DNA from: a virus
IMG/VR virus record: IMGVR_UViG_3300027754_000173
Coordinates: 1 to 44,586 of that record
Strand: one strand, 5' to 3'
Length of the DNA stretch: 44,586 bases
Shown: piece by piece, positions 20,000 to 40,654 of the stretch
Position numbering within the stretch: position 1 is the stretch's first letter
Layout: every line of letters begins with the position of its first letter
The notes under the pieces: generated by a model
What the model saw: only the letters and a program-made list of their open reading frames with translations
Database searches by the model: none
Told to the model about the DNA's origin: nothing
Translations under genes and position numbers: made by a program

Positions 20000-22486
20000 A
20001 TGGCCAGTATCCCTTTCAGAGTAACGCACCGAAGAACATGTACAGTTGGAAGAGTTCCACAAATAGGATCTCTTTTAACTGGTGAAATTTATGTACAATT
20101 AGCTGATGAATTGATTTATTTCAAAAATGCAGATGATAGTAGAGTAGTTACAGTAATCACAGACGCATCTGGAAATGGATTAAATAAATTAAAATTTAGC
20201 GGAGCTTCTGCTGGTGAAATTCCATATTGGGATGGAACTAAATTTTTAGCAGCCAGCACTGGAAGTTTTATTACTACTGGAATGACTGGTGCATTTGGTA
20301 GTGCAGGTGGTGGTAATGTTGATTTATCAAATTATGTAACTAAAACTGCAACTGGCGCGTTAACTGGCTTGACTGGCGGACTCGTTAGCACCGCAATGAC
20401 TGGCGCGTTAACTGGCTTGACTGGCGGACTCGTTAGCACCGCAATGACTGGCATACTTGCAGTAGATTTATCAAGTTATGCAAAATCTTCTGATCTTAAT
20501 AGTTACGCAACAAATGCGAATACTGGCAATCTAACTAATGTATTTGCAGGTCTTAGTGGTGGCTATTTAACTCATTCTCAGATTCCAAATATTTCTGGAG
20601 ATGTTTGCATTAATGCTGCATCTAATGTTTCTATTCTTTGTGCAATTCAAGGGTATCCAGTATCCAATCAAGTTCCAACAATTGGTCAAACTTTACAATT
20701 TGATGGAACATATTGGCAGCCTGGAGCCATTCCAGCTGGTGGCAACGGTGGTGGTGGATTGGTTTATTATTTTAATGATTTAATTACTGCAGATCTTCCA
20801 ACTGGAGGTCTTTCTGGTACATTGTCTGGAAATTTTGAATTGGGCAGAACTGGAATTCCGTCGCAAAAAACAATTGTTGCCAATGCACTTCCTGTAGATA
20901 CGTATAAGCCAATTGTTGGATTTGTTAGTGATAATTTAGATCCACTTACTACTGCTATTCCTGCTGGATTATTTGATTTTAATATTTGGGCATCAAGTAA
21001 TAGTGCGACTGAAACAATACTTAAATTACAAGTTTATAAATATAATGGAGACACTTTAACTTCCACAAAATTAGCTGAGTCTGATGATTTTTATACTTAT
21101 GATGGAATTGTTACAGCTCAATATATAATGTCTATTGTTTTGCCACAGACAAGCATATTAAGTACTGATAGATTGTATATTTTAGTTCTTGCTAAAGGGT
21201 TAGGAAATAATAAAGATATTACTTTGTATTTTGGTGGCAATACTCCATCGCATGTTCACACCACAATTCCATCTGTTGGTGGCTCAGGATTAGTTAAAGT
21301 AATTAATGGAATTATGCAAAGTTGCGCATCGCAACTTGTAGATTCTGACGTATCTAATAGTGCGGATATTTGTGGTACAAAAATAAAAGCAGGCTATTTT
21401 GCATTAGCAGCTAATACTGGTTGTTTTGTATTTGTTTCGCCTAGTTATTCATCTATAATTGCAGGTCAAAATAATACAAATAATGGAAATTATTCAGCTA
21501 TAGTTGCTGGTAGAGATCATGTTATAACAGATTCATATGATGCATTAATATTAGGCGGTTCAGCAAACCGCATTTGCAATTATGGATTTAGAAATTCTAT
21601 ATTAGCAGCTCAAAATAGTTGTACATTAGGTGATTCATCATGTAACAGTTTAATTTCAGCATCTAACGTATCAATTTTATGCAATAGTAGTAATTCTAGT
21701 ATTTTAACATCTTATTATTCATGTAATATTTGCGATGTTACATCAACATTAATTTCAACATCCTGTTCTTATTTATCTGGATCTTGTAATTCAGCAATAA
21801 TTGGATCTTTTTGTTCGCGTTTGACTGGCGTTTGTAATTCCGTTATAATTGCAGGAACTAATATAACAGGAAATTCATCAAGAACATTATATGCAAATAA
21901 TTTTTGTTCATATGCTGGAAAATTTTATGGTGACGGTTCTGCATTAACTGGCATAGCTACTGGTAGTTTTATTACTACTGGCATGACTGGTAATTTTGGT
22001 TCATCTCAAACTCAAATTACTCAAACAAGTTTAATAGCAACAGGATCATGTATAAATGGAACTCCATGCCTTCATACAAGAAATACTGTTATTGTCGCTA
22101 ATGCTTGTCTTAATGGCATGTCTGATAATGGATATTTATGTTTAAATGCTGAAGACAATATTAATAAAACTTCTGGTTTATATAATTTAGTACCTTCTAC
22201 AAATATTACAGGAGCTGGTACATTTTCGGCAATGATAATTGGACATGGATATTGTTCAAATGGAAATGCATTTGTTACTTCAATGCGTATGGATGGCGCT
22301 TTTGCTTGCAATACGATATTAAATCAAACTAAAAATTATTATTTTAGATCTAAAACTACTCATGATGCAAATGTTTGTGTTAATCAAAATGGATATTTAA
22401 CAATAAATATTACTGGCATTTCAACTGATGTTGGTCATTGGTCTACAAAATTAGATATTATAGATTTAAATAGACCAATGCCTTAA
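20000..22486 (+). CDS. Tail/head fibre-like adhesin with beta-helical Cys-rich repeats
   Basis: An 828-codon gene. The N-terminal domain (residues 1-60, with LLTGEIYVQLADELIYFKNA) resembles virion-attachment domains of phage fibres. A low-complexity Thr/Gly region follows with TGSFITTGMTG at 87 and again at 654, and an exact 16-residue tandem repeat at 118-149. Residues about 485-640 form repeating N-S-x-I-x-x-x-x-N units (SIIAGQNN, AIVAGRDH, ALILGGSAN, SILAAQNSC), typical of trimeric beta-helices such as YadA-like heads, and are unusually rich in Cys. The C-terminal domain (from about 675) is likely the receptor-binding or trimerising tip. The gene ends abutting a convergent gene with no spacer. 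Confidence 0.75.
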   Translation: MASIPFRVTHRRTCTVGRVPQIGSLLTGEIYVQLADELIYFKNADDSRVVTVITDASGNGLNKLKFSGASAGEIPYWDGTKFLAASTGSFITTGMTGAFGSAGGGNVDLSNYVTKTATGALTGLTGGLVSTAMTGALTGLTGGLVSTAMTGILAVDLSSYAKSSDLNSYATNANTGNLTNVFAGLSGGYLTHSQIPNISGDVCINAASNVSILCAIQGYPVSNQVPTIGQTLQFDGTYWQPGAIPAGGNGGGGLVYYFNDLITADLPTGGLSGTLSGNFELGRTGIPSQKTIVANALPVDTYKPIVGFVSDNLDPLTTAIPAGLFDFNIWASSNSATETILKLQVYKYNGDTLTSTKLAESDDFYTYDGIVTAQYIMSIVLPQTSILSTDRLYILVLAKGLGNNKDITLYFGGNTPSHVHTTIPSVGGSGLVKVINGIMQSCASQLVDSDVSNSADICGTKIKAGYFALAANTGCFVFVSPSYSSIIAGQNNTNNGNYSAIVAGRDHVITDSYDALILGGSANRICNYGFRNSILAAQNSCTLGDSSCNSLISASNVSILCNSSNSSILTSYYSCNICDVTSTLISTSCSYLSGSCNSAIIGSFCSRLTGVCNSVIIAGTNITGNSSRTLYANNFCSYAGKFYGDGSALTGIATGSFITTGMTGNFGSSQTQITQTSLIATGSCINGTPCLHTRNTVIVANACLNGMSDNGYLCLNAEDNINKTSGLYNLVPSTNITGAGTFSAMIIGHGYCSNGNAFVTSMRMDGAFACNTILNQTKNYYFRSKTTHDANVCVNQNGYLTINITGISTDVGHWSTKLDIIDLNRPMP
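20351..20446 (+). repeat. Exact 48-bp tandem repeat (two copies) in the fibre gene
   Basis: Copies at 20351-20398 and 20399-20446 are identical and in frame, encoding TGALTGLTGGLVSTAM twice. The repeat is GC-richer than its surroundings (ACTGGCGCGTTAACTGGC), so it is either recent or maintained by gene conversion. Slippage here would lengthen or shorten the fibre. Confidence 0.95.
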
Positions 22487-23461
22487 TTATTGGCCCATTA
22501 ATTTAATCATTTGATCCATAGATAAAGTTCCTCCATTTTTTGCAATCTCTTCTGATAATGAAAGTTTTTTTGCAGATGGATCTAAAATATCTATATCTTT
22601 TTTAGTTGCGCCAAAAAGCATGGTCGCATCGCTATCACCAACTTGATTTTCATATTTTTCTTTAGATTTTTTATTATCAATAAATTCAAAGATTTCTTTT
22701 GGATCTTTTTTAATATGATCTGGAATATCATCATTATATTGAAAAATATTATTAAATACTCTTGCATATAATAGTAATTTCATTTGATTTCCAGTTAAAT
22801 CACAAATAAATTTTCCGAAAAAAGCGTATGAATTTTCACAAAATGAAATGTACATATTAAAAAAATCTTCAACTACAATTTTTTGAATATTTTCGTCATT
22901 TAGTTTTTCGACAATATTAAAATATATTTTATTTATAATTTGCAAATATTCATGCGGTAAAGATCCAAATTCATCTTCTGTAAAAGCTAGTTTTTTTAAA
23001 ACTTTATCTTCGTAGATTAAAATTCTTAAAAATTCTTCGTTTGACATTTTTGTTGCATAATTTTCCGCAGTAATTCCAACTAATTCAGCTTTTTTTGCTA
23101 ATAATATATTTAATTTATACGTTTCATCATCTATTAATTTTTGATGTCTTTCTTTTTGAGATGGCAAAAATAAATTATTTTTTGATTTTTTTAAATTTGA
23201 AACGTATAATTCTAATTCTGCTATTTTTAAATCATCGCTTTGATTCCAGATTCCATCTTCTTTAATTCTATCCAAACATTCCTGTTCTGTTTCTATGCCC
23301 TTTTTTATTGCAATATCTTTATATTTTTCATAATTAATAGATATATAATTTTGATCTCTTAAAGAAAAATGTCGAAAAAACAAGGTTCGACCGTTAAGAT
23401 CGAACCTTGTATATCCATCTATTATTTCAATTAATGAAGATAATAAAGGATTATAGTTCAC
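22487..23461 (-). CDS. Tail assembly chaperone-like protein, second gene (GTG start)
   Basis: A 324-codon gene on the minus strand. It is helical and charged: DQNYISINYEKYKDIAIKKGI near the N-terminus, ELVGITAENYATKM at about 127-140, then a conserved-looking SYAFFGKFICDLTG and a disordered tail ending SMDQMIKLMGQ. The only possible start is a GTG at 23461 overlapping the stop of the upstream gene by 11 bp; an in-frame stop lies three codons upstream. A +1 (or -2) frameshift from the upstream frame within that 15-nt window is an alternative. The place just before the neck and tape measure genes fits a tail assembly chaperone. A terminator-like hairpin lies inside its first codons (23375-23410). 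Confidence 0.55.
   Translation of the reverse strand: MNYNPLLSSLIEIIDGYTRFDLNGRTLFFRHFSLRDQNYISINYEKYKDIAIKKGIETEQECLDRIKEDGIWNQSDDLKIAELELYVSNLKKSKNNLFLPSQKERHQKLIDDETYKLNILLAKKAELVGITAENYATKMSNEEFLRILIYEDKVLKKLAFTEDEFGSLPHEYLQIINKIYFNIVEKLNDENIQKIVVEDFFNMYISFCENSYAFFGKFICDLTGNQMKLLLYARVFNNIFQYNDDIPDHIKKDPKEIFEFIDNKKSKEKYENQVGDSDATMLFGATKKDIDILDPSAKKLSLSEEIAKNGGTLSMDQMIKLMGQ
23375..23410 (-). terminator. Intrinsic-terminator-like hairpin inside the second chaperone-like gene
   Basis: A perfect 11-bp stem ACAAGGTTCGA/TCGAACCTTGT (23380-23390 and 23400-23410) with a 9-nt loop. On the minus strand it is followed by TTTTT, exactly like a rho-independent terminator. It begins about 40 nt after the stop of the upstream gene, within codons 18-29 of the downstream gene, and could limit expression of that gene relative to the first. 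Confidence 0.6.
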
Positions 23462-24206
23462 CAGCTTCTATTTTTCGATCTAATTCTGCAAAATCTTCTT
23501 TTGTGGACGCTTGATTGAAAAACCAAAATGCTATCAATGTGGATAATTTGTTTGCAATAGATTTATATTGTCCAGATTCAGATTCCTCTTTTTTATAGAA
23601 ATCTGCAATTTTATCTTCAAATTCTTTACCTTTATATAAGGGTTTAAATTCAGTATCTAATTCTGTTTTAATAAAAGATAAATTTAATATATACCACATT
23701 AAAACTTTATTTTGAGCTTTTGAGTCTGCAGTATGATCAAATAGTGCTCTATACGAAGATTCAATTTCTATAATCTTTTTTCTTGATAAATTTAACTGCT
23801 CTAAAACTTCATCTTGTTTAGCTTTAATTTCATCACTTTTATTTGTAGATGCATCTAATTTTGTATGTTCAGATTGAAGGTCAAATACTTGTTTATAAAG
23901 ATCAACCAATTCTTGAGATTCAGATTCTGACATCAAACCTCCTGTATCCGAATACTTCTTAGCCAACATCGCTTTGGTTAAAATGCCCTTTTTAATACAC
24001 TTACTCATTTCAACACTGAATTCTAAATCGGCTTCTTCCGATTGTCTTCTAGTTGGCTTTTTAATTAAAATTTCAGTTGGTGATTTTACTGTTACCTTTT
24101 TCTTTACAATTGTTTCTTCTTTTGAAATTTCATCAACAGTAGATTCTTCTATTACTGTTTCTTTGTTTTCATAGATTGTAAATATATATAATTCTTTTGA
24201 GTCCAT
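23451..24206 (-). CDS. Tail assembly chaperone-like protein, first gene
   Basis: A 251-codon gene. The N-terminal 50 residues have a beta-rich start (ELYIFTIYENKETV). A conserved-looking block follows, KKPTRRQSEEADLEFSVEM with IKKGILTKAMLAKKY, then long coiled-coil helices (residues 100-150) and KIADFYKKEES near the end. Phage tail assembly chaperone pairs are encoded upstream of the tape measure and often joined by a frameshift; this gene overlaps the next by 11 bp in the +1 frame. The AT-rich start region (AATATATAATAGGAAT) gives a weak Shine-Dalgarno and a -10-like box. Confidence 0.55.
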   Translation of the reverse strand: MDSKELYIFTIYENKETVIEESTVDEISKEETIVKKKVTVKSPTEILIKKPTRRQSEEADLEFSVEMSKCIKKGILTKAMLAKKYSDTGGLMSESESQELVDLYKQVFDLQSEHTKLDASTNKSDEIKAKQDEVLEQLNLSRKKIIEIESSYRALFDHTADSKAQNKVLMWYILNLSFIKTELDTEFKPLYKGKEFEDKIADFYKKEESESGQYKSIANKLSTLIAFWFFNQASTKEDFAELDRKIEAGEL

Positions 24207-24220
24207 ATTCCTATTATATA

Positions 24221-24511
24221 TTAATTTTTAAATACAAAATTTACAGTAAAATCATTAATATCATTGTCAAATGATCTTATTGTTTCATTTCCAATATCTA
24301 GTACTCGCTTTCTTATTCTACTCATTTTTTCATTATCAAATGTATCTGCATTATCAACAAGATTATGATATTCAGATGGAATCCCATCTTTAATTTTTTT
24401 AACGTATTGATCGTGTTCAAATTTTAAATCTTCTATTAACATTAAATATTGTTTAAATAAAAAACTAATTGATTTGGTTGATTTTTTTGAAAGTGTTTCT
24501 TTTGCGTCCAT
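24221..24511 (-). CDS. Small conserved phage protein in the minus-strand tail unit
   Basis: A 96-codon gene. The core FLFKQYLMLIEDLKFEHDQ is a helix; the C-terminal part has IRKRVLDIGNETIRSF, then a beta ending FTVNFVFKN. I recognise the general pattern from phage hypothetical proteins near neck genes but cannot assign a role. It is the first gene of the minus-strand unit; its promoter must lie in the 44-bp divergent region shared with the gene at 24556 (minus strand reads TATAATATATAGGTATAAGGT before the ATG, given here as two overlapping boxes). Confidence 0.6.
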   Translation of the reverse strand: MDAKETLSKKSTKSISFLFKQYLMLIEDLKFEHDQYVKKIKDGIPSEYHNLVDNADTFDNEKMSRIRKRVLDIGNETIRSFDNDINDFTVNFVFKN

Positions 24512-27929: not shown

Positions 27930-30900
27930 ATGGCTCTCGATAAAATTCAAGTAACAGTAGAACCAGTTTTAAACACAACCTCTTTAGATGCAGCCATCAA
28001 TAGAGTGCAGGGTAGAACTTTAAAAGTTAGAGCTGAAGTCCAAGATCCAAATTTTGAACAAAAAATTGGTAGACCTCTTGGAAGAATAACTGGTCAAGTA
28101 GATGAATTTAAAAAGTCATTAGATGCCGCAAATGCTCGCGTGTTAGCATTCGGAGCATCTGTAGGAGTTATTGGTTTAATATCTAGTGCGTTTAAAGATT
28201 TAATAAATTCTACAATTGAAGTAGAAAAAAATCTAGCATTATTAAAAGTCACTGGAGATAAAACTTTTGGAAATTTAGAAAAGACTGGAAAAGGTGTATT
28301 CCAAATTGCAAAAGACATAGGTGTTTCATTTGCAGAAGCTACAAATGCAACTATAGAATTTTCTAGACAGGGTAAAGATTTACAACAATCTTTAGATGCT
28401 GCTAGAGCAGCTCTTGTTTTAGTAAAAACAACAGGTTTAGATGCGGTATCATCTGTAAATGGTTTAACTACAGCGGTTAATGCTTTTAGCGACTCTGGGC
28501 TTACTTATGCCGATGTAGTAAATAAAATGGCTGCAGTTGATACCAAGTTTGCTGTCAACTCAAAAGATCTTATTGAAGGTATAGGTCGTTCAGCTTCAGT
28601 TGCACAACAAGCTGGAGTATCATTTAATGAATTGCTTGGATTCATTACGGCATTGCAAGAAAAAACTGGTAGAGGTGGTCCAGTTATTGGTAATGCCCTA
28701 AAAACAATTTTTACAAGAATTCAAAATCCTGCAATAATTAATCAATTAAGAGAATTTAATATAGAATTGCAGGATACAGAAGGTAATGGCTTAAGTGCGT
28801 TACAAATATTAAAGAATTTTGCTAAAGAATTTGATAAATTAAAAGGAAATGATAAAGCTAGAGCAATTTTGGATGTTGGTGGAACTTTTCAAATTGATAA
28901 AATTGCTGCGTTAATAAAAGATCTTTCTAGCGCAAATTCAAAATTTGATCAAGCGACTGCAACGTCTGCAAATGCTAAAAATGAAGCTTATGGTAAAGTT
29001 ATAGAATTAAATAAAACATTAGATTCATCTTTAATTAAATTAAATACATCAGCTAAAGAATTTGGTTCTGCAATTGGTTCAATAGCTTTTGCCGATTCTT
29101 TTAAAGAAACTGTAAATTATATTTCTTCGAAATTTGATTCTTTAAATCAATCAATAAATGGAACAAAAACTTTAGAAGAAAGATTGGCATCTGGCGATGG
29201 AGATGGAGAAAAAGGTGGTGCAACATTAGGCAAAGCAATATTAAAAGGTATTGGCTCTGTTATTTCTGGTCCAGGTCTTTTACTTCTTGGTGGTATATTA
29301 ATTAAATTATCGGCAGATTTTGCAAAATTTTCTGCGTCTGGATTACAAACTTTATTAGGTATAACAACAAAATCCAAAGAAGAGGAATCTATTGAAGAAT
29401 CTATAGTTAATAAACTAAGAGGTAATGTTTCTCTTCAAAGACAATTATATTCATTAGGCGATGATAAAATTGCTCAAAATAAAGAATTGCTTAGACTTTA
29501 TACAGAGCAATATAATGCAAATAAAAAATTAACTGATTTAGCTAAAGGCGCTGCTCCAGCTTTATATGAAAGTGGAGTTAGATTAACTGGTGGAGAATTA
29601 ACAGTTAAAAATCTTCAAACTACAACGAAAGCATCTGCTAGTGCAAATGGTTATGTACCTAACTTCAATTCTTTAAATGAAGCGGTTTCATATGAAAAAG
29701 CCAATATGCCTGCTGGCGCAAGCGTTAAAGTAAATAAAAATTTTCCTTTTGGTGGCGGCAAGTATGGAACAATGGTAAGTAATACTTCAGAGTTTGAAAT
29801 TCCTAATTTCATGAATACTGGAGGAACTGCAATCATTCCTAGATATAAAAATGCAGTTTCTGGATATGTTCCTAATTTTGCAGATACTGAAAAGAAAAAA
29901 ACGCCTAGAAAAATTAACGAATTTCAAATTGATGCTGAAAAATATGGAATTGCAGGTTTAACATTAGGTAGCGATTCATATACTTTAGAAAGATCTAAAG
30001 CTAAAGTATTAAAAGATGAAAATGATAAACCAACAAAATGGGTAAGAGATAATTTTAGTGATTCTCCATTATTTAATTCTTTAATGAATTATGATAAAGC
30101 TGTAGTTACTAATTTACCAGTTGGTGGCGTTTACAAAGCAAGCTCAACACTAAAGTCTAACGAAAAAGATGTAAAAGCAAATTTTGTTAATAGATTAAAT
30201 AAATCTATTGGATCATCATCTTTAGCTTTTTTAATAAATGAAATTAATAATCTTAAAATTCCTTTAACTAATTCATTTAAACAAAAATTATATTCAACAG
30301 AAGTTGGAAGTTTAAATTTAATTGATAATGGCCTAGCTGGAAATTTCTTTGAGAAAGTTGTTAAACTTCCTTTGATGCAAAATGAAAAAGATTTTGGCTT
30401 CAAAAAGGAAACTGGTTCTAATTTTGATATTTATGGATTGTCTGCTCCAGATGCTAAAGTATATGGTCTTCCAGAAAGATCTTTTAGATATGGTGAAATA
30501 AAATTTAGTTCAAAAGATTTATATGACGATATTACTGAAAAGTTTTTGAATCAAGCCAAACTGGAAGTTGGAGGATCTGTGGTTCCCAAAACTAGCGTTG
30601 CGTCTTCAGCTGCGCATGGATATGTCCCCAATTTTGCAGCAACTGGTTTTGTAAAAAACAAAGATGATGGACCAAATGTAGTTGAAGAGGGAAAAATTTT
30701 TGAAAAAAATTTCTATAATTTATTAAAGATAAACATGGATGATAGGCCAAAATCTGGCGCTCCATTGGATTTACCAAAGGGAATTTTAGATAAATATGAT
30801 GATGAAACTTTATCAAAATTTGGAGTTGCAGTTGGATCTCCTTTTAGAACTTCATGGGGAGATATCAAATTATCTCATAATAAAGAAAGTGCATTAAGTT

Positions 30901-33900
30901 TAATTTCTAAATATTTTAGATATACTGGTACTTTAATAGATGAATCTAAAAAAATAAATGCATCTTCAGAAAATTTTTCAATGCTTTATAAAAATGGACC
31001 AGAAGATATTATTTTAAATAGAAAGGCATCTTTGCCTGCTTTAGTAAATGAAAGTCCTAGTTTATTCAGACAAATTTCAGAAAAATTAAGATATAAAGGT
31101 AAAGAAGAATTAAATAAAAGGGGTCAAGCCACTGAAATTGATTTTACCTATAATGCTGATCGCGTATTTACTGGTATGTCTGCATCAGCGCATAAAGGTT
31201 ACATTCCAAATTTTGCAGAAACAAAATTAGGAGAAGGTTATTCTGCAGCATTTTATGATCTTGGTTCTGGAATTGGAGAAAAAAGATTTTTTCCAGAAAT
31301 TTTAGAAGAAGATCCTAAAAAAGCAAAAACTGAAGCTACCATATCTAAAAAACTAGAACAACTAAATTCAAAATTAAAAATAGTAAGATTTCCAAAAATT
31401 TTTGGTTCTACTGCAACTTCTATAAAAAAAGAGGTTGTAACCGATCCATTAGCAGCAAAAGTATTTGATGGTGTTCAAGGACCAAGCGATGTAAAAAAAA
31501 TGTTGCAAAGAAGATTGCAAGAAACTTTAAGAATTGCATTAGCTCCAGTTCAAATAGCTGGAATAGTTCCGCAAGATTTAAATGAAAATAATTATACAGT
31601 TAATTCAAATATCCAAGCATTGCTTGGAAATATATTAAATAGTCATTCAGGAATTCCATCTGCAGAAGATTTATATAGACAAATTAATGCTTCTGGCGGA
31701 ATGATGACAATGATTGACCCTGGAGAATTTTATAAAGATAAACCAAATAAAAAAGAATTAGAAAAATTTCAAAAATATAAAGAACAAGGATTATTGGAAA
31801 ATGCTTATAATGGATATGTTCCTAATTATGCGACTGCTGCAGAAGGTTCATTTGCAACTTGGAGTGATCAAGGTAGATCAATAAGAGGTACTAATTATGG
31901 AAATAAAGTATTTAAAGAAGAAAATTCAACAACAGACTTCTTTAAAGATAATGATATAAGATTTGGTAAATTTGACGAATCTAAAGGGCAACCATATAGA
32001 GATTTTAAAATTGAACAAGAATATTTGATGGGTAAAGCTTTAGAGAGAATTGGCTCTAAGATACCAGGCGTAAGATTTCCTAAAATTTTTGGCAGTTTAC
32101 AAAGATCTTTAAAAGATAAAACTATAAGAAAAGAAGTTGCAAAAGGTCCATTAGCAAGTTCTTTTTTAGATAATTTAACTAAAAATTCAAAAGGCGTTAA
32201 TACAATTTCACGCATACAACAATTGGAGCAAAATTTAACTTCTGCGTTAATAAAACCAATAGAAAATTATGGAATAGCTCCATACGATATATCTGGAAAT
32301 CCACAAAATTATACTATAAATGACGCTTTTCAACAGGGTTTAATTTCTTTGTTTAAAGATAAAGAAGCTAGAAGAACTGTATCTAGTTTTAGAAGTCAAA
32401 CAAAAGATGAAAACCCAAAATTATATAATTTATTAAAAGAAAGTTTTGAAGAAAAACGAGAAAAAAAACAAGTTAGTGTATCAAAAGAATTCTTGTCTCA
32501 AATAATTAATAATGGTGGAATTGCAACAATTTTTGATGTTGGCCAATTTGAATTTAAAAACAAAAACCAATATGAACAAGAATTGCAAAGAGCTAACATT
32601 CAAGAATCTTTAGAATCTAGATTTAAAGAAGTATCTACTTCACCTTCATTGAATTCACAAAATTATTCTCAATTAAATTATTCTCAATTAATGCGTGCAG
32701 CTCCAAAGCGCAGAGGATATTTAGCTAAAGATGGATATGTGCCTAATTTTACTGAGCTTAGTGGTTCTGGATCTGGAATGCTTTACAATGATCCAAATTA
32801 TGATGTTTTAGGTTCAGGAACCTCTGGAATGTTTTTAGCTCCAAAATCTGGAGAAGGAATGGGTCAAAAAATATTCTTTAAATCTGATAGTGAAAAAGCA
32901 AAACATGAATATCATGTTAATAAATCATTAAAAGAATTTGAAAAATTAAATCCTACCTTATTTGCTAAAAATGCAATCTCATTTACTAATGTTGGAAATA
33001 TTTTAACAAAAAATGGATTAATCGCAGGATTTGAAAGAGAAGTCATTAAAGACCTTGGAGTCGATGAATTTGCAACTGGAACATTTCCGAATAAAAGCAA
33101 AAATTCTGGAGATGTGAACGAAATGGCAAACTATGCATTTTTCCTTTCTGAGTTTATGTCTCAGGCTGGAGCTAAAAATGTTGTAGATGAATATCGCAAA
33201 TCAAATAATGACGATTCATTTAGATTGCAAGATGTATATGCTGGAAATTTTAAAGTTAATGCTGCAATGCAAAAAGCTTTAACCGATGAAACAAACAAAA
33301 GATTTTCATTAAAAAACAAACCCAAAGATTCATATTCTGAAATAAAATCTCTAGCAGAATCAAATGGAATATCAGCTTTGAATGAAAAGTATGGAGCTAT
33401 TGGCGCTAGAAATATAATGTTTGATACAATGGGTTTTTCACAAAATGCTGTTAAGACTGCATCTAGTGGTTATATACCTAACTTTGCAATTAAAGACAAG
33501 CTTAAAGCGGGACTACCAATATTAAAAGAATTAGCAGTAAATAGTATTGAAGGATTTTTGAATTTGCCAGATAAGAGTATTGATATGATTTTAGAGGCTG
33601 TTGCTAAAAGTGGACACGCTCTTGACTATTTTGTAAATGATACTTTAAATGGCGGAAACGCAGTCAAACATAAAGAATTTGTTATAAAAAAAATGCTTGA
33701 AAGGGGCTATTGGAGTGGCGATGGTATTGTTTGGAAGCATAAAGAAACTGGAAAAATAGCTTATCGTCCCAGTACTATTAATAAAATTATAAATAAAGCT
33801 GCTGATGGATATGTTCCAAATTTTTCAAAAAAAGCAGTTCAGGATGCAGTAGAAAGAGAGCAAAAACAATCTGGTTTACCATTATCTGATATTTCTGTAG

Positions 33901-36900
33901 TAAGAGATAGTCGAGTTATGGGGCCACAAAACCCTGGAGGTTTTGCGGTAATAAATAAACGAGATGAGCCAAATGGAAAAGTTCCAAATTTTGCAGGTAG
34001 AAGTGCTGGTGATTTATTTGAAGATTTAGGTGGTAAATTAACTCCAGAAATTACTGAAAATGTAAAAGCCACAAAAGCATTAACAGAAGTAATAAAAAAA
34101 ATAACTTCTATTAATTCTTTTACTTCCTCACCTGCAAGTTCAAAGGGTTCTGGATATTTAGGCGCAGCTGCAATGTATGGATCAATATCCATTCCAACAA
34201 CGACTACTACTGAGATAGAAACTAAATCAAAAAGAGGAAAACCTAAAATAGATTCAGTATCAAGTTCTTTATTGATTCCACAAGGTCAAGCTTATGATTT
34301 ATCTAATACATCTGATAAAGATCACCTAAGTAAAGAAGAAAATGCAAAAAGAATTGAAGAAAGAATAAAAACAAATTCATTCTCACTTCCTCCTTCACCT
34401 ATTGCTAGACAATCTCAAAATTATTCATATAGATCATTACCACCAATTGATCCTAACACTCAAAAAAGTTTTAATCCATTTTTAAAAAATAATTTTGCGA
34501 GTGAATTATTTCCTTATTCACCATCTAATGAAAAAGCGGAAGCTTTAGCGGTTAAGGCAAGAATTAAAATTCCACTTTATCGATCAAATGTTCCAGGCGT
34601 AAATAAAGATATTAATGAGTCTCGATTGGTTGGTTATTCAGAAAGAGGTCAGTCTTCAGATCCAATTACTCAATTTAAAGATTTAAAAGAATCAGTATTA
34701 AAAAGTAAAGAAAATTTTAATAAATTAGCTTCTGAAATTGCAATACTTTCAACTCAGCTACAAAAAGATGGAAAAGAAATGCATACTTTTCAAGATCAAT
34801 TAGCTGCATCAACAAAATTTTTAAAAAATGTTGGGATTGACATTTCACCTAAACTTCTTAGTGACTTAACTAAAGGTACTGCTTTTGAACAAACTGAAAA
34901 ACAATCAAAAAAATCTACAAATGATGCTTTGGTTCAAAGAGCTGTTTCACTTTCAGAAGTAAATCCAAATACTGAAAGAAATTTTCAAATGCAGGCTCAA
35001 GCTTTTGCTGCAGAAAGGCAGCGACAAAGATATGCACAATACGCTCAAGCTCAAACAAACGTATATGGATCATTTGCAACTCCAAATGTAGGGCCACCTA
35101 CTACTCAAGACGATATTAAAAAATCTTTATATGATAGAATGAAATCGGGAGTAGGATCAATAATTGGTTCTTCAAAAGTTTTAACTGAACAAGAAAAAGC
35201 TCAAAAATTAGAAAAAGATAAATTAATAGCGCAAGAAAAAGCAAATAAATCAATGGCAGATTCTTTTGCCACAATTATGAAATGGCAAACTGGGATTGCT
35301 GCATTAACTGGTGCGGTTAGCGTACTTGGAGAAGGTGCTACAGTCGCAGCAACTTCTATTGGATCACTTTTTAATAGTGTAATTTTAGCAAAAGAAGGAA
35401 TGTCTGGAGCTAAAGATATTCTTGGCAAAACTACTTATGAATATACTACAGCTTCTGGAGAAAAGAAAACTGGAGAAAGAAATAAAACATTTGGAGAATC
35501 TTTCAACGCAATAAATAAAAAAATTGACGAAGGCATGGGCACTGGTGATGGTGCGGGCACTGGATTTTTGGGAATTGTAGGTGGAATAAAAAATGCAAAA
35601 GGTGAAATAGGTACTTTTGCTAAAGCAGCAGGAATTGCAGCTTTATCATGGGGCACTGTTGCTTTTCAGGCGATTCAAAATATTGATCAAGTTTGGAAAT
35701 ATCTTGATAATGGAGCTGAAAAAAGCAAAAAAGCAATTGCTAAAGTCGCAGAAATGCAAGATAAATATAATATAAGTTTGGGTAGATCTCAGGAATCCGT
35801 AGCTAAAATGATTTCAGTAATTGGTGATTCTGATACTGAAGGATTGATGGGCGCATTTACTAGGGCTGGAATAATTTTTGGAAGAGAGCAGTTTGGTGGT
35901 CAAGATAAGCAAACAACTGCTTTAGCACAATTTAAATTTGGCAATGAGGGTACAAAAGTTGTCGCAGGTGAATTATCTAAAATAATGTCCGCAACAGCAA
36001 GCACTCAAATGTCAGAACAGGATAAAAAAAATCCACTTAAAGTTGCAATTGAAGCTTCTAAATTACAAGGAAATTTTTTAGAAAATATAATAAATAAATA
36101 TTCAAATGATGTCGTTTCAGAAAGACAAGTTCCAATGACTGCAGAAGAATTAAAGTCTGAAACCCTTTTCGGTAAATTGGTAAAAATGCTTGCATTTGGA
36201 GCTGGACCTGGTAATGGAGCTAAACCTGCCCTACCTGGAATGAAATTAGAAGTAATCACACAAAGAGTTCTTGATGCTTCAAAAGCTGCAGAAATGCAAT
36301 CCGAATTATTTGACGAACTTCAAAAACAAGCCCAGTTAGTTTTACCTAAAATAAATGAAGAAGAAAAAAGAAGAGCAAGCATATTAGGTGTATCGGTTGA
36401 TACCTTGAAGGTTCAATTAGATCTATATACAAAAATCACAAAAGCAATTAATGATACAAAAACAGGTTTAGAATTTAATTTAGAAATTGAAAAAGATGAT
36501 TTAGGTACAACTCAAAAAAGAAAAGATGAAATTGAATTACAATTAAAACTTCTACAAAAAGAAAAAGAAATACGTTCTCAGAAAAACGATATTGCAAGTT
36601 CGGTTTCTCAAAAAGAAATTTTTGATCGTTTAAAAGGTCAATTAGGAGGCTTAACAGAACCTCAGTATCAACAATATAGTGAAAGTTTTAAATCTATAAA
36701 TCTTGGAATTCAAAAAGGAGATACATCTTCACAGTCTGCTGAAAAATTAGCTGATTTATTGACTGCTTTAGGAGTTCAATCATCTCAATTAAAACAAGAA
36801 GCTGCAGATCTTTTGAACTCTCAATTAAGTTCTATTGATATTATTGGTAATAAAGATAAGTTATTATTAAAATTAGAAACAGATAAATTACAAGTAAGTA

Positions 36901-39755
36901 AATTCTATAAATATGAACAAGATCAAATAAAAGAAAGATTAGAAGCTCAATTAACTGTTTCTCAAAAAAATTTAGCAGTCAGAAAAGAAGAAGCTTCAAT
37001 AATTCAAAATATTAAAGATTTGCAATTTAAAACTTCAATTGCCGAACTTGGCCCAAGAACTCAGGAATTATTAACTAAACAAAGAGAGCCTGAAAATCAA
37101 TTACAAAAAGATAACCAAGCATTGCAGTTCAGAAGAGAAGAGTCATTTCAATCTACAAAAAGAAATGTTATAAATTATGTAACTCAAAGTAATCCAGAAA
37201 TTTTTAAAGACGAAAAAGCTGCTGCCGCTTTATATGGATCAAAAAGCTTATCTGATTTAAAAGATGCATTAATTAAAGTAAAACAATTACAAGAAGAACA
37301 AGCAAAGGTAGATCCCATAAAACTTAGTGGTGATTATTTTAGCAATGGAGTAAAAAGAGCTACTGATACTTTAGAAAGTGCATTTGATATAATTGGAAAG
37401 AAATTTGCTGAAAAATTAGGTTTACCTTCATTTGATGTCAATAAACCTGCAGAATTAAAATTAGAAAAACAATTTAATAAAGATAATTTTTTAAAGAAAG
37501 GAGAGTATTCTGATGCAGAAATGGGAATTCAATTTCCCTTAACATTATTTCCAACTGGAACTGAATCATTAAGCAATCCACTTGGTGAAAAATTTTTAAA
37601 GCCAATAAGTTTAGGTAAAACTAATTCTTCAGAATTAGTTCCATTTGATGCTAAAGATTTATTTTCAACATTAACGCCAACAAATAGTAATATACCATTT
37701 AAACAAACAGAAATAGTATTACGTTCTGTTGATTCAGCTTTAAAAACTTCTACTGGTACTGCCACTAAAACCACTGAATCTGCAAAAAAAGCAGAAGAAG
37801 CTGTACGTAAGGTTAATATTGACGAATTCTTTAAAAGTTTCTTAGAAACAATTCCAGATAAAGCTATTCGAGATGAAATTAAAGCCAAGTATGAAAATGC
37901 AATTAAAGATAGACAAACTTTTGTTAGAAGAAGTACTACATTTTCTGGTGGAATGGAAGAATCCAAACTTAAAATGGATGAAGATATTAAATATTTTAAC
38001 AATACTTTAGGAAAACAAATTCCAAATGATTTTGCATCTTCAATGAAAGATGCATTAAAAGAACTTTCAAATCCAAATTCAACAGAACCTTTAAAAAATA
38101 GATTATTGGGAGTTGCTAATGCTTTTTTATTAAAGATACAAGATGCATTTATGACTCAAGCAGCTAATCAAATAACAAGTGGTATTATGGGAATTGGAGG
38201 AAAAGCTGCTGGAGGTCCAATTGTTGGAGGATCTGGAGTTAAAGACGATGTTCCAGCGATGTTAATGGGTGGTGAATATGTTATTACAAAATCGGCTGCA
38301 CAAAAATATGGCCCAGAATTTTTATCTGCTTTAAATAGGGGTTCAATTAAAAAATTTGCAACAGGTGGATTTGTCGAATCAGATACAACTAAATATCAAG
38401 ATACTTCAAAAATAACTCCATATGGTCAAACAAGAGATAAAGGATTATCGTTTGATGCTTCTGGCAAAGTTATTGGAATGGATAGTTATACTGGAACTGC
38501 AGATAATAAAGAAGATGCAATGAGAAAAGCTCAATCTGATTATTATTATAAAAATGCTCAAAATGGAGAGGGTGGATTTTACATGCCTGGACAAAATGGA
38601 ATGGGTGCAATAATGGGGCAAAAAAATTTATTAGCATTTGCTACTCAACAATCTGCTGGTACTAAATTTGATAAATTTTCATCTGGAGCAAATTCTGCTG
38701 GAATTGATTTGGGTGCTGGTAGTGCTAATATGTCTTTGTTTGCATTAAGAAATCAAGGAAATTCTAAAAATACAGAATATTCTGAAGCAAAACAAAAAGC
38801 ATTAGATTTATATCTGGGTGGAATTGACGCTTCAAAAGAAAAAGCAAATAAAGAAGAAGATATTAGAAAAGATATTGAAAAAGCAATACAAGAATATAAA
38901 ACTGCAGAAAGAAAACAATATCAAAGTCTTATTAGAAATTTTGTAATATCTGCTGCTATGGCAGGAATTAGTTACGCTGGAAATAAAATGATGACAACTG
39001 GTGGTCAAGAAGCGCAAAGTGGAAAAATAGAATCCATAAATAATGAAATAGATACTAAAGGTTACTCTAATCAAGGAATTTCACAAAATGGAGAAATTTA
39101 TAGCGCCTCAAATAGAGCTTCAATTGATAATACTAGAATAACAAGTGGTGAAAAATTTTTTGGATACGAAGGAAAAGGTGGATTTTTTAGAGGATCATTG
39201 TCTGGAGATAATAATAAATTTATATCTAATGGTAAAGGAATGTATTCTTGGGATGGTGGAGGTTATAGTCGAATGAATGATAATTCATTTTCAGGTAAAC
39301 AGTGGGCACAAATGAATTATTCAGCAAAACCAATTCAAATAGGAGGCGAAACATATTATCCAGCCTCAATGGGAAGGCGTGCGGCAGGCGGTTATGTTCC
39401 AGGAAATGGCATGGGAGATAATGTTCCAACAATGTTAAATGGTGGAGAATTTGTGGTTTCTAAACAAGCTACGCAAAATATTGGAATAAATAAATTGCAA
39501 CAAATAAATTCAGGATCAAAATCTTCTGATGTCTCAGAAGAATTACTATCTAAATTAGATGAACTTGTTGAAAAATTAAGTGCAGTTGGCACTTTAAATA
39601 TAACAGTTAATTCTGATTCAAGTGGAAATCAAAAATCATCAAAAGAATCAAGTAATAATCAAGATCAGCAAACTAAAGATCTTGCTAAAAGAATTAAAGA
39701 TGTAGTTTTAGGCGTTCTTAGAGAAGAAAAACGACTTGGAGGTATGTTGAGATAA
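27930..39755 (+). CDS. Giant tape measure protein with embedded enzyme-like domains
   Basis: A 3,941-codon gene. Residues 1-330 are a TP901/PhageMin-type tape measure domain (NARVLAFGASVGVIGLISSAF, FAEATNATIEFSRQG, TGRGGPVIGNALKTIFTRI). Hydrophobic segments occur near 440-475, 2450-2485, 2560-2585 and 3665-3685. Residues 574-2021 carry nine G-Y-V-P-N-F motifs with nuclease-like and kinase-like domains between them. Residues about 2690-3100 are coiled coil. Two GG-DDVPAML-GGEYV boxes typical of tape measure C-termini are near 3428-3455 and 3820-3848. It sets tail length and usually enters the host with the DNA. Only about 2,400 residues look like real tape. The next gene overlaps the stop (TAATG). 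Confidence 0.92.
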   Translation: MALDKIQVTVEPVLNTTSLDAAINRVQGRTLKVRAEVQDPNFEQKIGRPLGRITGQVDEFKKSLDAANARVLAFGASVGVIGLISSAFKDLINSTIEVEKNLALLKVTGDKTFGNLEKTGKGVFQIAKDIGVSFAEATNATIEFSRQGKDLQQSLDAARAALVLVKTTGLDAVSSVNGLTTAVNAFSDSGLTYADVVNKMAAVDTKFAVNSKDLIEGIGRSASVAQQAGVSFNELLGFITALQEKTGRGGPVIGNALKTIFTRIQNPAIINQLREFNIELQDTEGNGLSALQILKNFAKEFDKLKGNDKARAILDVGGTFQIDKIAALIKDLSSANSKFDQATATSANAKNEAYGKVIELNKTLDSSLIKLNTSAKEFGSAIGSIAFADSFKETVNYISSKFDSLNQSINGTKTLEERLASGDGDGEKGGATLGKAILKGIGSVISGPGLLLLGGILIKLSADFAKFSASGLQTLLGITTKSKEEESIEESIVNKLRGNVSLQRQLYSLGDDKIAQNKELLRLYTEQYNANKKLTDLAKGAAPALYESGVRLTGGELTVKNLQTTTKASASANGYVPNFNSLNEAVSYEKANMPAGASVKVNKNFPFGGGKYGTMVSNTSEFEIPNFMNTGGTAIIPRYKNAVSGYVPNFADTEKKKTPRKINEFQIDAEKYGIAGLTLGSDSYTLERSKAKVLKDENDKPTKWVRDNFSDSPLFNSLMNYDKAVVTNLPVGGVYKASSTLKSNEKDVKANFVNRLNKSIGSSSLAFLINEINNLKIPLTNSFKQKLYSTEVGSLNLIDNGLAGNFFEKVVKLPLMQNEKDFGFKKETGSNFDIYGLSAPDAKVYGLPERSFRYGEIKFSSKDLYDDITEKFLNQAKLEVGGSVVPKTSVASSAAHGYVPNFAATGFVKNKDDGPNVVEEGKIFEKNFYNLLKINMDDRPKSGAPLDLPKGILDKYDDETLSKFGVAVGSPFRTSWGDIKLSHNKESALSLISKYFRYTGTLIDESKKINASSENFSMLYKNGPEDIILNRKASLPALVNESPSLFRQISEKLRYKGKEELNKRGQATEIDFTYNADRVFTGMSASAHKGYIPNFAETKLGEGYSAAFYDLGSGIGEKRFFPEILEEDPKKAKTEATISKKLEQLNSKLKIVRFPKIFGSTATSIKKEVVTDPLAAKVFDGVQGPSDVKKMLQRRLQETLRIALAPVQIAGIVPQDLNENNYTVNSNIQALLGNILNSHSGIPSAEDLYRQINASGGMMTMIDPGEFYKDKPNKKELEKFQKYKEQGLLENAYNGYVPNYATAAEGSFATWSDQGRSIRGTNYGNKVFKEENSTTDFFKDNDIRFGKFDESKGQPYRDFKIEQEYLMGKALERIGSKIPGVRFPKIFGSLQRSLKDKTIRKEVAKGPLASSFLDNLTKNSKGVNTISRIQQLEQNLTSALIKPIENYGIAPYDISGNPQNYTINDAFQQGLISLFKDKEARRTVSSFRSQTKDENPKLYNLLKESFEEKREKKQVSVSKEFLSQIINNGGIATIFDVGQFEFKNKNQYEQELQRANIQESLESRFKEVSTSPSLNSQNYSQLNYSQLMRAAPKRRGYLAKDGYVPNFTELSGSGSGMLYNDPNYDVLGSGTSGMFLAPKSGEGMGQKIFFKSDSEKAKHEYHVNKSLKEFEKLNPTLFAKNAISFTNVGNILTKNGLIAGFEREVIKDLGVDEFATGTFPNKSKNSGDVNEMANYAFFLSEFMSQAGAKNVVDEYRKSNNDDSFRLQDVYAGNFKVNAAMQKALTDETNKRFSLKNKPKDSYSEIKSLAESNGISALNEKYGAIGARNIMFDTMGFSQNAVKTASSGYIPNFAIKDKLKAGLPILKELAVNSIEGFLNLPDKSIDMILEAVAKSGHALDYFVNDTLNGGNAVKHKEFVIKKMLERGYWSGDGIVWKHKETGKIAYRPSTINKIINKAADGYVPNFSKKAVQDAVEREQKQSGLPLSDISVVRDSRVMGPQNPGGFAVINKRDEPNGKVPNFAGRSAGDLFEDLGGKLTPEITENVKATKALTEVIKKITSINSFTSSPASSKGSGYLGAAAMYGSISIPTTTTTEIETKSKRGKPKIDSVSSSLLIPQGQAYDLSNTSDKDHLSKEENAKRIEERIKTNSFSLPPSPIARQSQNYSYRSLPPIDPNTQKSFNPFLKNNFASELFPYSPSNEKAEALAVKARIKIPLYRSNVPGVNKDINESRLVGYSERGQSSDPITQFKDLKESVLKSKENFNKLASEIAILSTQLQKDGKEMHTFQDQLAASTKFLKNVGIDISPKLLSDLTKGTAFEQTEKQSKKSTNDALVQRAVSLSEVNPNTERNFQMQAQAFAAERQRQRYAQYAQAQTNVYGSFATPNVGPPTTQDDIKKSLYDRMKSGVGSIIGSSKVLTEQEKAQKLEKDKLIAQEKANKSMADSFATIMKWQTGIAALTGAVSVLGEGATVAATSIGSLFNSVILAKEGMSGAKDILGKTTYEYTTASGEKKTGERNKTFGESFNAINKKIDEGMGTGDGAGTGFLGIVGGIKNAKGEIGTFAKAAGIAALSWGTVAFQAIQNIDQVWKYLDNGAEKSKKAIAKVAEMQDKYNISLGRSQESVAKMISVIGDSDTEGLMGAFTRAGIIFGREQFGGQDKQTTALAQFKFGNEGTKVVAGELSKIMSATASTQMSEQDKKNPLKVAIEASKLQGNFLENIINKYSNDVVSERQVPMTAEELKSETLFGKLVKMLAFGAGPGNGAKPALPGMKLEVITQRVLDASKAAEMQSELFDELQKQAQLVLPKINEEEKRRASILGVSVDTLKVQLDLYTKITKAINDTKTGLEFNLEIEKDDLGTTQKRKDEIELQLKLLQKEKEIRSQKNDIASSVSQKEIFDRLKGQLGGLTEPQYQQYSESFKSINLGIQKGDTSSQSAEKLADLLTALGVQSSQLKQEAADLLNSQLSSIDIIGNKDKLLLKLETDKLQVSKFYKYEQDQIKERLEAQLTVSQKNLAVRKEEASIIQNIKDLQFKTSIAELGPRTQELLTKQREPENQLQKDNQALQFRREESFQSTKRNVINYVTQSNPEIFKDEKAAAALYGSKSLSDLKDALIKVKQLQEEQAKVDPIKLSGDYFSNGVKRATDTLESAFDIIGKKFAEKLGLPSFDVNKPAELKLEKQFNKDNFLKKGEYSDAEMGIQFPLTLFPTGTESLSNPLGEKFLKPISLGKTNSSELVPFDAKDLFSTLTPTNSNIPFKQTEIVLRSVDSALKTSTGTATKTTESAKKAEEAVRKVNIDEFFKSFLETIPDKAIRDEIKAKYENAIKDRQTFVRRSTTFSGGMEESKLKMDEDIKYFNNTLGKQIPNDFASSMKDALKELSNPNSTEPLKNRLLGVANAFLLKIQDAFMTQAANQITSGIMGIGGKAAGGPIVGGSGVKDDVPAMLMGGEYVITKSAAQKYGPEFLSALNRGSIKKFATGGFVESDTTKYQDTSKITPYGQTRDKGLSFDASGKVIGMDSYTGTADNKEDAMRKAQSDYYYKNAQNGEGGFYMPGQNGMGAIMGQKNLLAFATQQSAGTKFDKFSSGANSAGIDLGAGSANMSLFALRNQGNSKNTEYSEAKQKALDLYLGGIDASKEKANKEEDIRKDIEKAIQEYKTAERKQYQSLIRNFVISAAMAGISYAGNKMMTTGGQEAQSGKIESINNEIDTKGYSNQGISQNGEIYSASNRASIDNTRITSGEKFFGYEGKGGFFRGSLSGDNNKFISNGKGMYSWDGGGYSRMNDNSFSGKQWAQMNYSAKPIQIGGETYYPASMGRRAAGGYVPGNGMGDNVPTMLNGGEFVVSKQATQNIGINKLQQINSGSKSSDVSEELLSKLDELVEKLSAVGTLNITVNSDSSGNQKSSKESSNNQDQQTKDLAKRIKDVVLGVLREEKRLGGMLR
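29892..30584 (+). other. PD-(D/E)XK nuclease-like domain I in the tape measure protein
   Basis: Between motifs 2 and 3. E808 (GNFFEKVVKLPL), D833 (SNFDIYGL) and E856-I-K858 (RYGEIKFSS) follow the order and spacing of the E, D and E-x-K residues of PD-(D/E)XK nucleases. All candidate catalytic residues are present, so it could be active. The assignment is by motif only. Confidence 0.5.
30672..31184 (+). other. PD-(D/E)XK nuclease-like domain II in the tape measure protein
   Basis: Between motifs 3 and 4. E925 (GKIFEKNFYNLL), D947 (GAPLDLPKG) and D978-I-K980 (WGDIKLSH) repeat the pattern of domain I with Asp in the last motif. It is shorter than domain I. Confidence 0.45.
31215..31799 (+). other. 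Kinase-like domain I in the tape measure protein
   Basis: Between motifs 4 and 5. A Gly-rich start G1101-E-G-Y with K in GEKRF, a helix Glu (E1135, EATISKKL), the catalytic-loop-like D1216-L-N-E-N-N1221 (D and N five apart as in HRDxxxxN; the His is Pro), and the DFG-like I-D1263-P-G-E-F. VRFPKIFGS (1152-1160) is shared with domain II. Confidence 0.5.
31827..32723 (+). other. Kinase-like domain II in the tape measure protein
   Basis: Between motifs 5 and 6. RGTNYGNK1326-VFK resembles the glycine loop plus Lys, VRFPKIFGS at 1381-1389 matches domain I, A-P-Y-D1453-I-S-G-N-P-Q-N fits a catalytic loop with extra residues, and I-F-D1536-V-G-Q-F fits DFG. It looks paralogous to domain I but more degenerate in the catalytic loop. 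Confidence 0.5.
32751..33464 (+). other. Kinase-like domain III in the tape measure protein
   Basis: Between motifs 6 and 7. G1628-S-G-T-S-G glycine loop, Q-K1647-I-F-F, an E-helix (EYHVNKSL), G-F-E-R-E-V hinge-like strand, L-Q-D1768-V-Y-A-G-N1773 with canonical D-to-N spacing, and M-F-D1832-T-M-G. It is the most kinase-like glycine loop of the three. Confidence 0.5.
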
Positions 39756-40654
39756 TGAAAGATTATACAAATCAATTTTTACTTATAAAGCCATTAGTAT
39801 GGAATAATAATCAATATACTAATTCAAGTATATATTATAAAATTGATGCAATTAATAATATTTCACTTTCTAAAAATAATTCATTTTCTGAATATTATGG
39901 ATTAGGAGCTGTTCAATTACCAATGAATGTAAATGCTCCTCAATCTACAGAATTATCAATTGATAGATTCTTAATGTATGATAATAATTCAATAGATTCA
40001 AGACAAGAAGATATTTTTTATAGATATAGTGGATCTAATCCATTATCAGAAGCAATTGTATATGATAATGATACGCTTTATAAAGTAAAAAATTTATATT
40101 TAATAAATTATTCTATTGGATTTTCAATTGGCGAACTTCCAAGAATTAATACAAAATTTACTTCATATGAAATTCCCGAAATAAGTAAATATAATTTAAG
40201 TGACGATTTTAAAATAAATAAATCTTTAGATTATCCAAAAGCATATATTCCAAATTTATCATCTATTACTATATTAAATAATGATGATACTCCCAATAAT
40301 ATAATTACTTTTGGATATAATATTTATTCATTTGAATATTCATTAGAAATAAATCGACAACCATTTTTTTCTATTGGAAGTTCTACTCCATCTGAAGTAT
40401 GTGAAATTTTACCAATAAAAATAATTTTTACTATAAATTCAAAAATTAATAGTGACGAAATAACTAGAAATAAAGAAATTTTAACAAAAAAAACTCAAGA
40501 AAATTTAGAATTTAAAATAGTTATTTTAATAGATGATGAAAAAAATATTATTTTTTATATAAAAAATGCTCAATTAATAAATTCTGAAATTACATTATCT
40601 ATTGAAAATACATTAGAATTAAAAAGAACTTTTATAGGATACTATGGCTTATAA
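39755..40654 (+). CDS. Distal tail protein with tail-tube-like fold
   Basis: A 299-codon gene, starting in the tape measure stop (TAATG). Residues 200-209 read NRQPFFSIGS followed by STPSEV, matching ARMPIYQLGS-KTPDDV in the gene at 6934 (residues 202-214) at nearly the same position. The N-terminal part (NISLSKNNSFSEYYGLG) is also tube-like. The place immediately after the tape measure fits a distal tail or tail-tip ring. The next gene overlaps by 11 bp. Confidence 0.6.
   Translation: MKDYTNQFLLIKPLVWNNNQYTNSSIYYKIDAINNISLSKNNSFSEYYGLGAVQLPMNVNAPQSTELSIDRFLMYDNNSIDSRQEDIFYRYSGSNPLSEAIVYDNDTLYKVKNLYLINYSIGFSIGELPRINTKFTSYEIPEISKYNLSDDFKINKSLDYPKAYIPNLSSITILNNDDTPNNIITFGYNIYSFEYSLEINRQPFFSIGSSTPSEVCEILPIKIIFTINSKINSDEITRNKEILTKKTQENLEFKIVILIDDEKNIIFYIKNAQLINSEITLSIENTLELKRTFIGYYGL

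Follow-up and report, generated by a model that had tools for sequence, protein, structure and literature searches.

We report that a tape measure protein (TMP) encoded on a 44,586-base IMG/VR virus record (IMGVR_UViG_3300027754_000173, analysed at its full length and hereafter called the window; G+C 31%) carries an array of modules bounded by a short recurring GYxPNF motif, and that two of these modules, S2 (between motifs 2 and 3) and S3 (between motifs 3 and 4), belong to a large and divergent module family in which the residues of a PD-(D/E)XK nuclease active site are conserved. Our best explanation, to which we assign a probability of roughly 55%, is that S2 and S3 each represent a subfamily within a new family of PD-(D/E)XK-like, metal-dependent nucleases, serve as swappable TMP modules, are delivered with the genome and cut nucleic acid at entry. 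The original prediction, made by a model from the letters of the window, had pointed to two nuclease-like domains inside the TMP; what it had not noticed, and what matters more here, is a widespread TMP family with exchangeable, motif-bounded, enzyme-like modules.

The carrier of the array is a TMP (coordinates of all features in Table 1), as its residues 126–318 match Pfam PF10145 (PhageMin_Tail, E = 5.6e-28) and the protein matches eight tape-measure families in PHROGs (E down to 4e-41); in a Pfam scan of the window TMP this domain alone rose above cut-off. Within it, GY[VI]PN[FY] begins at residues 574, 645, 897, 1090, 1295, 1602, 1847 and 1960, with a GKVPNF at 2016, and the region singled out by the original prediction (29892–31184) corresponds to residues 655–1085, which is to say the segments between motifs 2 and 3 and between motifs 3 and 4. 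Both segments are indeed motif-bounded and inside a TMP, and every residue of the two proposed active sites (E808/D833/E856-K858 and E925/D947/D978-K980) was found where it had been placed. The bare order of these residues carries little weight, because the loose pattern E-x(15-40)-D-x(15-40)-[DE]-x-K appeared in 86% (S2) and 79% (S3) of 5000 shuffled sequences, and we rejected it as proof of anything for that reason. With helix context included (G..[FY]E..D..[DE]xK), the pattern was found in 3.1% (S2) and 1.9% (S3) of shuffles, and across the whole 3941-residue TMP it starts at residues 804 and 921 and nowhere else. The observation alone being weak, relatives had to decide.

Searching viral contigs with a DNA pattern for GY[VI]PNFA returned at least 119 stretches, and the family, TMP and module counts given here rest largely on these listed matches. 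An open reading frame (ORF) with GY[VI]PNF was present in 113 of the 119 and held two or more motifs in 101 (114 and 102 if the window itself, L001, is counted too). The TMP N-terminal domain (phmmer with residues 41–420) was detected in all 75 GYxPNF ORFs that have at least two motifs and at least 400 residues before the first of them, which makes the array a trait of a TMP family. At least one nuclease-like family module occurs in 62 of these 75 TMPs (57 of 70 when the window and L123–L126, four loci found through the modules themselves, are set aside, all five being positive), while 13 of the 75 have none and six have two or more; two intact modules are present also in L066, L067, L087, L125 and L126. 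Two contigs (L121 and L122) that are longer copies of others (L114 and L109, respectively) were counted once. A hydrophobic stretch like that upstream of the window array precedes the array, at about residues 413–457, in all 15 TMPs inspected.

The phages that carry these TMPs appear to form a group without a sequenced isolate in the collection of 50,697 phage records that we searched, in which tblastn with six array queries from the window and its relatives gave no match and TMP matches covered the N-terminal part only (best 40 of 98 listed). Among genome contigs, 27 stretches had the motif pattern and four had at least two motifs per ORF (L134, L139, L149, L153), and as all four lie in metagenome bins, they provide no firm host. 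Close-relative scans using the whole array, or S2 alone, led nowhere.

To delimit the module family, we cut segments between motifs, trimmed the motif flanks and applied single-linkage clustering, which placed 85 of 173 segments of at least 100 residues, both window segments included, in one cluster; C-terminal pieces and segments shorter than 100 residues after trimming are omitted from it. We discarded an earlier trimmed clustering in which C-terminal pieces had been kept and 218 segments had merged. Module-to-module hits of untrimmed profiles were likewise rejected as evidence, because the shared GYxPNF flanks inflate such matches, and later comparisons used trimmed sequences only. In an alignment of 84 members (L016_795_1255 was omitted owing to its length), the column of E808/E925 holds E in 78 rows, D in five and I in one; that of D833/D947 holds D in 81, S in one and a gap in two; that of E856/D978 holds D in 46, E in 35 and other residues in three; and that of K858/K980 holds K in 82, T in one and a gap in one. 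These counts include four divergent rows (L036_1311, L052_6, L066_1120 and L125_1464) that are not part of the 70-row non-redundant set, where, flanks apart, just three positions never vary: the D, the K and a G that precedes the E by four columns; the E itself is at 93%. Two further alignments agree: in A3 the G and the D do not vary and the E and the K reach at least 90%, and in A4 the G, the D and the K do not vary and the E reaches at least 90%. Other family members are 13–36% identical to the S2 module; its close relatives in L114 and L109 keep all four residues, and in the S3 relatives in L005, L066, L067 and L087 the first position is E or D and the D, D and K after it are kept. Conservation in relatives thus lifts the signature beyond chance. 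Selection on the modules is purifying, with ratios of nonsynonymous to synonymous substitution rates (dN/dS) of 0.107–0.323 in nine of nine pairs, one of which (L066_1120/L125_1464) lacks the full signature.

The original prediction had described the two sites as duplicated, which proved misleading, as S2 and S3 have separate relatives. In trimmed profile–profile comparison, the families of S2 and S3 matched the two larger module families with P values of 2e-6 to 4e-8 (a P-loop module used as control gave 0.4–0.5), and the direct comparison of S2 with S3 gave P = 0.005. Given the separate relatives and the weak direct match, we assign S2 and S3 to different subfamilies of one family and reject a recent tandem duplication.

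In the predicted structures of both modules the E falls in a helix, the D by a strand or bridge and [DE]xK on the following strand, with another helix behind it. The two AlphaFold2 models, of S2 and S3, used input alignments of 69 and 46 sequences. In the S2 model (predicted local distance difference test, pLDDT, 82.6; predicted template modelling score, pTM, 0.75), E164 (E808) is in helix 156–172, D189 (D833) is beside strand 190–193 and E212/K214 (E856/K858) are at strand 208–213, with helix 217–235 following. In the S3 model (pLDDT 77.2, pTM 0.71), E29 (E925) is in helix 21–35, D51 (D947) adjoins a bridge residue and D82/K84 (D978/K980) are in strand 80–86, followed by helix 89–101 and further strands. 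A second structural aligner listed 12 entries for S3 at Z of at least 2 (McrC and DUF4297 three times each, LmuA, BglII, NucC, a bunyavirus endonuclease, GATOR1 and EcoP15I), ten of which we take to be PD-(D/E)XK nucleases. McrBC (PF10117), sought in the window's own record, had no match there. The conserved signature, the order of the elements and the enrichment of weak fold neighbours together make it quite likely that the modules have a PD-(D/E)XK fold and belong to that superfamily, and, with somewhat less assurance, the modules are probably catalytic.

Several results weigh against this interpretation. The original prediction had named an alpha-beta-beta-beta-alpha-beta core as its test, and what the models offer is a part of it, for both show helix–strand (or bridge)–strand–helix but neither shows a third strand between the helices, where there are at most two. 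The neighbours of S3 reach a Z of at most 4.1, below the aligner's own level of reliability, and Foldseek with S3 returned nothing at E < 0.001 (the best was a DUF4297-HerA chain, E = 0.068), while the S2 model had no fold match in the PDB or among viral predicted structures. Searches with 69 members against Pfam, NCBIfam and PADLOC produced no convincing nuclease family match (single weak PADLOC rows were REase_II, E = 0.0056, and HamA, E = 0.044), sequence searches of solved structures gave no match for the family, and PHROGs returned one weak row. Comparing profiles with those of known nuclease families gave no significant match for Mrr_cat (P = 0.026, with E and D in register), UPF0102 (P = 0.23) or the Cap4 nuclease (P = 0.41), all from rough profiles (UPF0102 row L191 is apparently from the wrong strand, several Mrr_cat rows are without catalytic residues and Cap4 has three rows); Mrr_cat against UPF0102, as positive control, gave P = 1.3e-4. 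Finally, we identified neither an immunity gene nor a control gene, and a folded enzyme may be unable to pass the tail tube. The proposed nuclease domains thus stand on a signature that is near-invariant across a large divergent family, on helix and strand placement and on S3 neighbours that are mostly such nucleases, but the canonical core does not emerge cleanly.

We then evaluated what the slots of the array contain and how that content changes between relatives. Over their first 1500 residues, the TMPs of two loci (L123 and L124) share about 81% identity (module 1, 92%; module 3, 83%), and the contents of their slot 2 (6745–7404 in L123, 6769–7416 in L124) are unrelated, the likeness amounting to 10 residues at the GYxPNF end. 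This swap identifies GYxPNF as a module boundary at which content is exchanged. By eye, E/D/E-x-[KR]-like patterns are still present in both alternative modules, and E/D/ExK modules outside the 85-member cluster were seen in L109 (2144–2791), L082, L054, L003 and L092. Slots also hold unrelated domains: L098 has an SNase domain (8742–9362, minus strand, TMP residues 438–644; PF00565, E = 2.2e-9, 38.1 bits against a cut-off of 21), and a 15-member cluster carries a P-loop module (e.g., L016 7882–8400, minus strand, with a Walker A-like GPAGTGKTT), an assignment that is motif-based, with weak Pfam AAA rows. The Pfam scan of these other modules covered 60 segments, of the 64 left once larger clusters were thinned; HAD-like modules were noted by eye (e.g., L063 832–1299). 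In the window itself, the three modules within residues 1090–1852 are related to one another and to L051 868–1072, such that a profile of the other three (L051 868–1072 included) matches the third window module at E = 3.9e-5. We presume them to be kinase-like on visual inspection (glycine-rich start, K, E, D-x4-N and DxG), and Pfam gave no kinase match for them. They end shortly past DxG, as do the C-lobe-less kinases of polyvalent proteins, the account of which (PMC5512222) describes kinases without the C-terminal subdomain. The short module at residues 1960–2021 recurs in many relatives. On balance, we lean towards seeing the array of this TMP family as a set of independently evolving, GYxPNF-bounded modules between an N-terminal structural domain and a C-terminal part.

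How such modules would act can be sketched. In the predicted active site, helix A would supply the E, a D would come after it and the strand that follows would bear [DE]xK. The TMP would occupy the tail tube and enter the cell envelope ahead of or together with the DNA, its modules would be packed in the tube, delivered along with the genome and then refolded, and within the first minutes the refolded modules would cleave nucleic acid where the genome enters, with host DNA, plasmid DNA or defence-related nucleic acid as candidate targets. For the lambda TMP, one account (PMC13190303) places the protein at the inner membrane, where it was labelled during injection, and has it help the genome cross. 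Because the nuclease-like active site is kept across dozens of related phages, the tail may bring enzymes into the infected cell; because slot content varies, a varying target, such as conflict with hosts or rival elements would present, is suggested over a single unchanging step on the phage genome itself, and slot contents would then vary under conflict or host-specific selection. Delivery and target are the parts that we put at even odds or a little below, and host DNA attack or genome processing, which the original prediction had offered as functions, we likewise infer. More speculatively still, GYxPNF TMPs might form an exchangeable injected-effector array, the phage-tail counterpart of polymorphic toxins, in which the core effector is the new nuclease family with copies differing in target, and phages of this uncultured group might win early conflicts with hosts or rival elements by filling one and the same tail protein with varied nucleases, kinases and other enzymes.

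Other explanations accept a nuclease and give it a different role. If the modules were PD-(D/E)XK-like nucleases acting on the phage's own DNA, either trimming or processing the entering end or serving within the virion at packaging or tail joining, one would predict them in most TMPs of the group, as observed (62 of 75), and the TMP is suitably placed, lying in the tail beside the genome end that leaves first; such a housekeeping nuclease should, however, form a single conserved subfamily at a fixed location, whereas here the subfamilies differ, slots swap between close relatives, 13 of the 75 TMPs do without a family module and six carry two or more, which leads us to regard this role as unlikely. 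Selfish insertions spreading among TMP genes in the manner of homing endonucleases would account for the observed exchange of modules between relatives, and PD-(D/E)XK homing enzymes exist, but the same motif also bounds unrelated P-loop, SNase and kinase-like modules that selfish insertion leaves unexplained, and we consider this origin highly improbable.

Still other explanations dispense with cleavage. The fold could have been kept in binding or structural inserts, with the acidic and lysine residues holding a metal or a partner, which would sit well with the unmatched curated nuclease families and with S2 finding no fold match; inserts of that kind would be expected to conserve hydrophobic core positions instead, and here the strongest conservation beyond the flanks falls, among other positions, on the very E, D and K that make up a nuclease site, with D or E at its fourth position, making this rather unlikely in our view. 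Convergence could even account for the resemblance, an unrelated alpha/beta fold having come to carry E, D and [DE]xK in that sequence, as the frequency of the loose order among shuffles (79–86%) and the incomplete core of the models might lead one to suppose; against this stand the conservation over 84 rows, the helix-strand-strand-helix placement in both models and the ten that we count as such nucleases among the 12 listed S3 neighbours, and we judge convergence quite unlikely. We accordingly retain swappable, co-delivered nuclease modules as the preferred explanation.

Table 1. Features of the tape measure gene and its module array (window positions; aa, amino acid residues of the TMP)
Feature	Position	Strand	Basis
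Tape measure protein (TMP), carrier of the module array, 3941 aa	27930..39755	+	ORF; PF10145; PHROG tape measure families
Conserved TMP N-terminal domain (PhageMin_Tail)	28305..28883	+	Pfam; phmmer with aa 41-420
Hydrophobic stretch upstream of the array, aa 437-457	29238..29300	+	Kyte-Doolittle
Short module, motifs 1 to 2, aa 574-650	29649..29879	+	Motifs; cluster with similar short modules of other TMPs (23 members)
Module S2 (motifs 2 to 3), aa 645-902, first PD-(D/E)XK-like module	29862..30635	+	Motifs; family alignment; model
E808, candidate catalytic residue, helix A	30351..30353	+	Alignment column; model
D833, candidate metal ligand	30426..30428	+	Alignment column; beside model strand
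E856-x-K858, [DE]xK motif	30495..30503	+	Alignment columns; model strand
Module S3 (motifs 3 to 4), aa 897-1095, second PD-(D/E)XK-like module	30618..31214	+	Motifs; family alignment; model; structural neighbours
E925, candidate catalytic residue, helix A	30702..30704	+	E808 column; model helix
D947, candidate metal ligand	30768..30770	+	D833 column
D978-x-K980, [DE]xK motif	30861..30869	+	E856/K858 columns; model strand
Three related modules, kinase-like by eye, aa 1090-1300, 1295-1607 and 1602-1852	31197..33485	+	Profile comparison; motifs by eye
Last modules, aa 1847-1965 and 1960-2021	33468..33992	+	Motifs

Beyond the array, the C-terminal part of the TMP contains the elements DDVPAMLMGGEYVI (38244–38285) and GYVPGNGMGDNVPTMLNGGEFVV (39390–39458), the second of which starts in a way that resembles GYxPNF and may share a common origin with it. 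A minor tail protein (40644–41642; phrog_14, with PF05939 below cut-off) adjoins the TMP region, followed at 41646–44585 by a 980-residue open frame that runs past the window end and has a composition odd for a tail protein (6.9% Cys, 14.1% Asn). On the other side, an ORF of 828 residues (20000–22486) has repeats containing Cys, as judged by eye, and the interval 22487–24511 holds minus-strand ORFs of 324, 251 and 96 residues amid a plus-strand block of structural genes; the 324-residue ORF had no Pfam matches and one weak PHROG row.

TMPs are mostly viewed as length rulers and as conduits for DNA. If our explanation holds, the tail ruler would also be a delivery vehicle for early-infection enzymes and GYxPNF a search key to a hidden pool of phage enzymes, and one could then test whether several enzyme domains in a row can travel through the tail tube and work in the cell. 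Several activities would be combined in one polypeptide, nuclease-like and kinase-like by motif in the window, SNase by Pfam and P-loop by motif in relatives. Compared with the PD-(D/E)XK superfamily (McrC, LmuA, DUF4297/Cap4, NucC, BglII, Mrr), the first five of which are among the listed S3 structural neighbours, the modules share an E in a helix, a D and a [DE]xK at a strand followed by a helix, and they differ in having no significant profile or fold match, in having at most two strands between the helices and in being embedded in a TMP between GYxPNF motifs. TMPs with built-in cell-wall hydrolases are known, and the known cases aid passage through the wall; some TMP matches among the phage records bear lysostaphin/ALE-1-like names (among the 40 of 98 listed). 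Such TMPs resemble ours in carrying an enzyme domain on a protein that enters the cell envelope, whereas the modules described here look nucleic-acid-directed, number several per protein and are exchangeable. Polymorphic toxin systems combine a constant delivery scaffold with exchangeable enzymatic modules, nucleases being frequent among them, and the TMP family parallels this with its constant scaffold and exchangeable enzyme-like modules, nuclease-like ones again frequent; it departs from it in that a phage tail protein is the carrier, the modules are internal and no immunity gene was identified.

In the literature, a full-text search, with most subscription papers outside its reach, gave no GYxPNF strings, a search for TMPs with a protein kinase domain returned none, and no nuclease modules in TMPs were described in the titles and abstract openings searched. 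A close parallel is found in polyvalent proteins, which Iyer et al. (2017, PMC5512222) present as long multidomain phage proteins thought to be injected with the DNA, with cassette-like exchange suggested; the term 'tape measure' is absent from the main text of that study. Both they and the TMPs described here string numerous enzyme-like domains together in a single long phage protein, but in our case the TMP serves as the carrier and a short repeated motif sets the modules off from one another.

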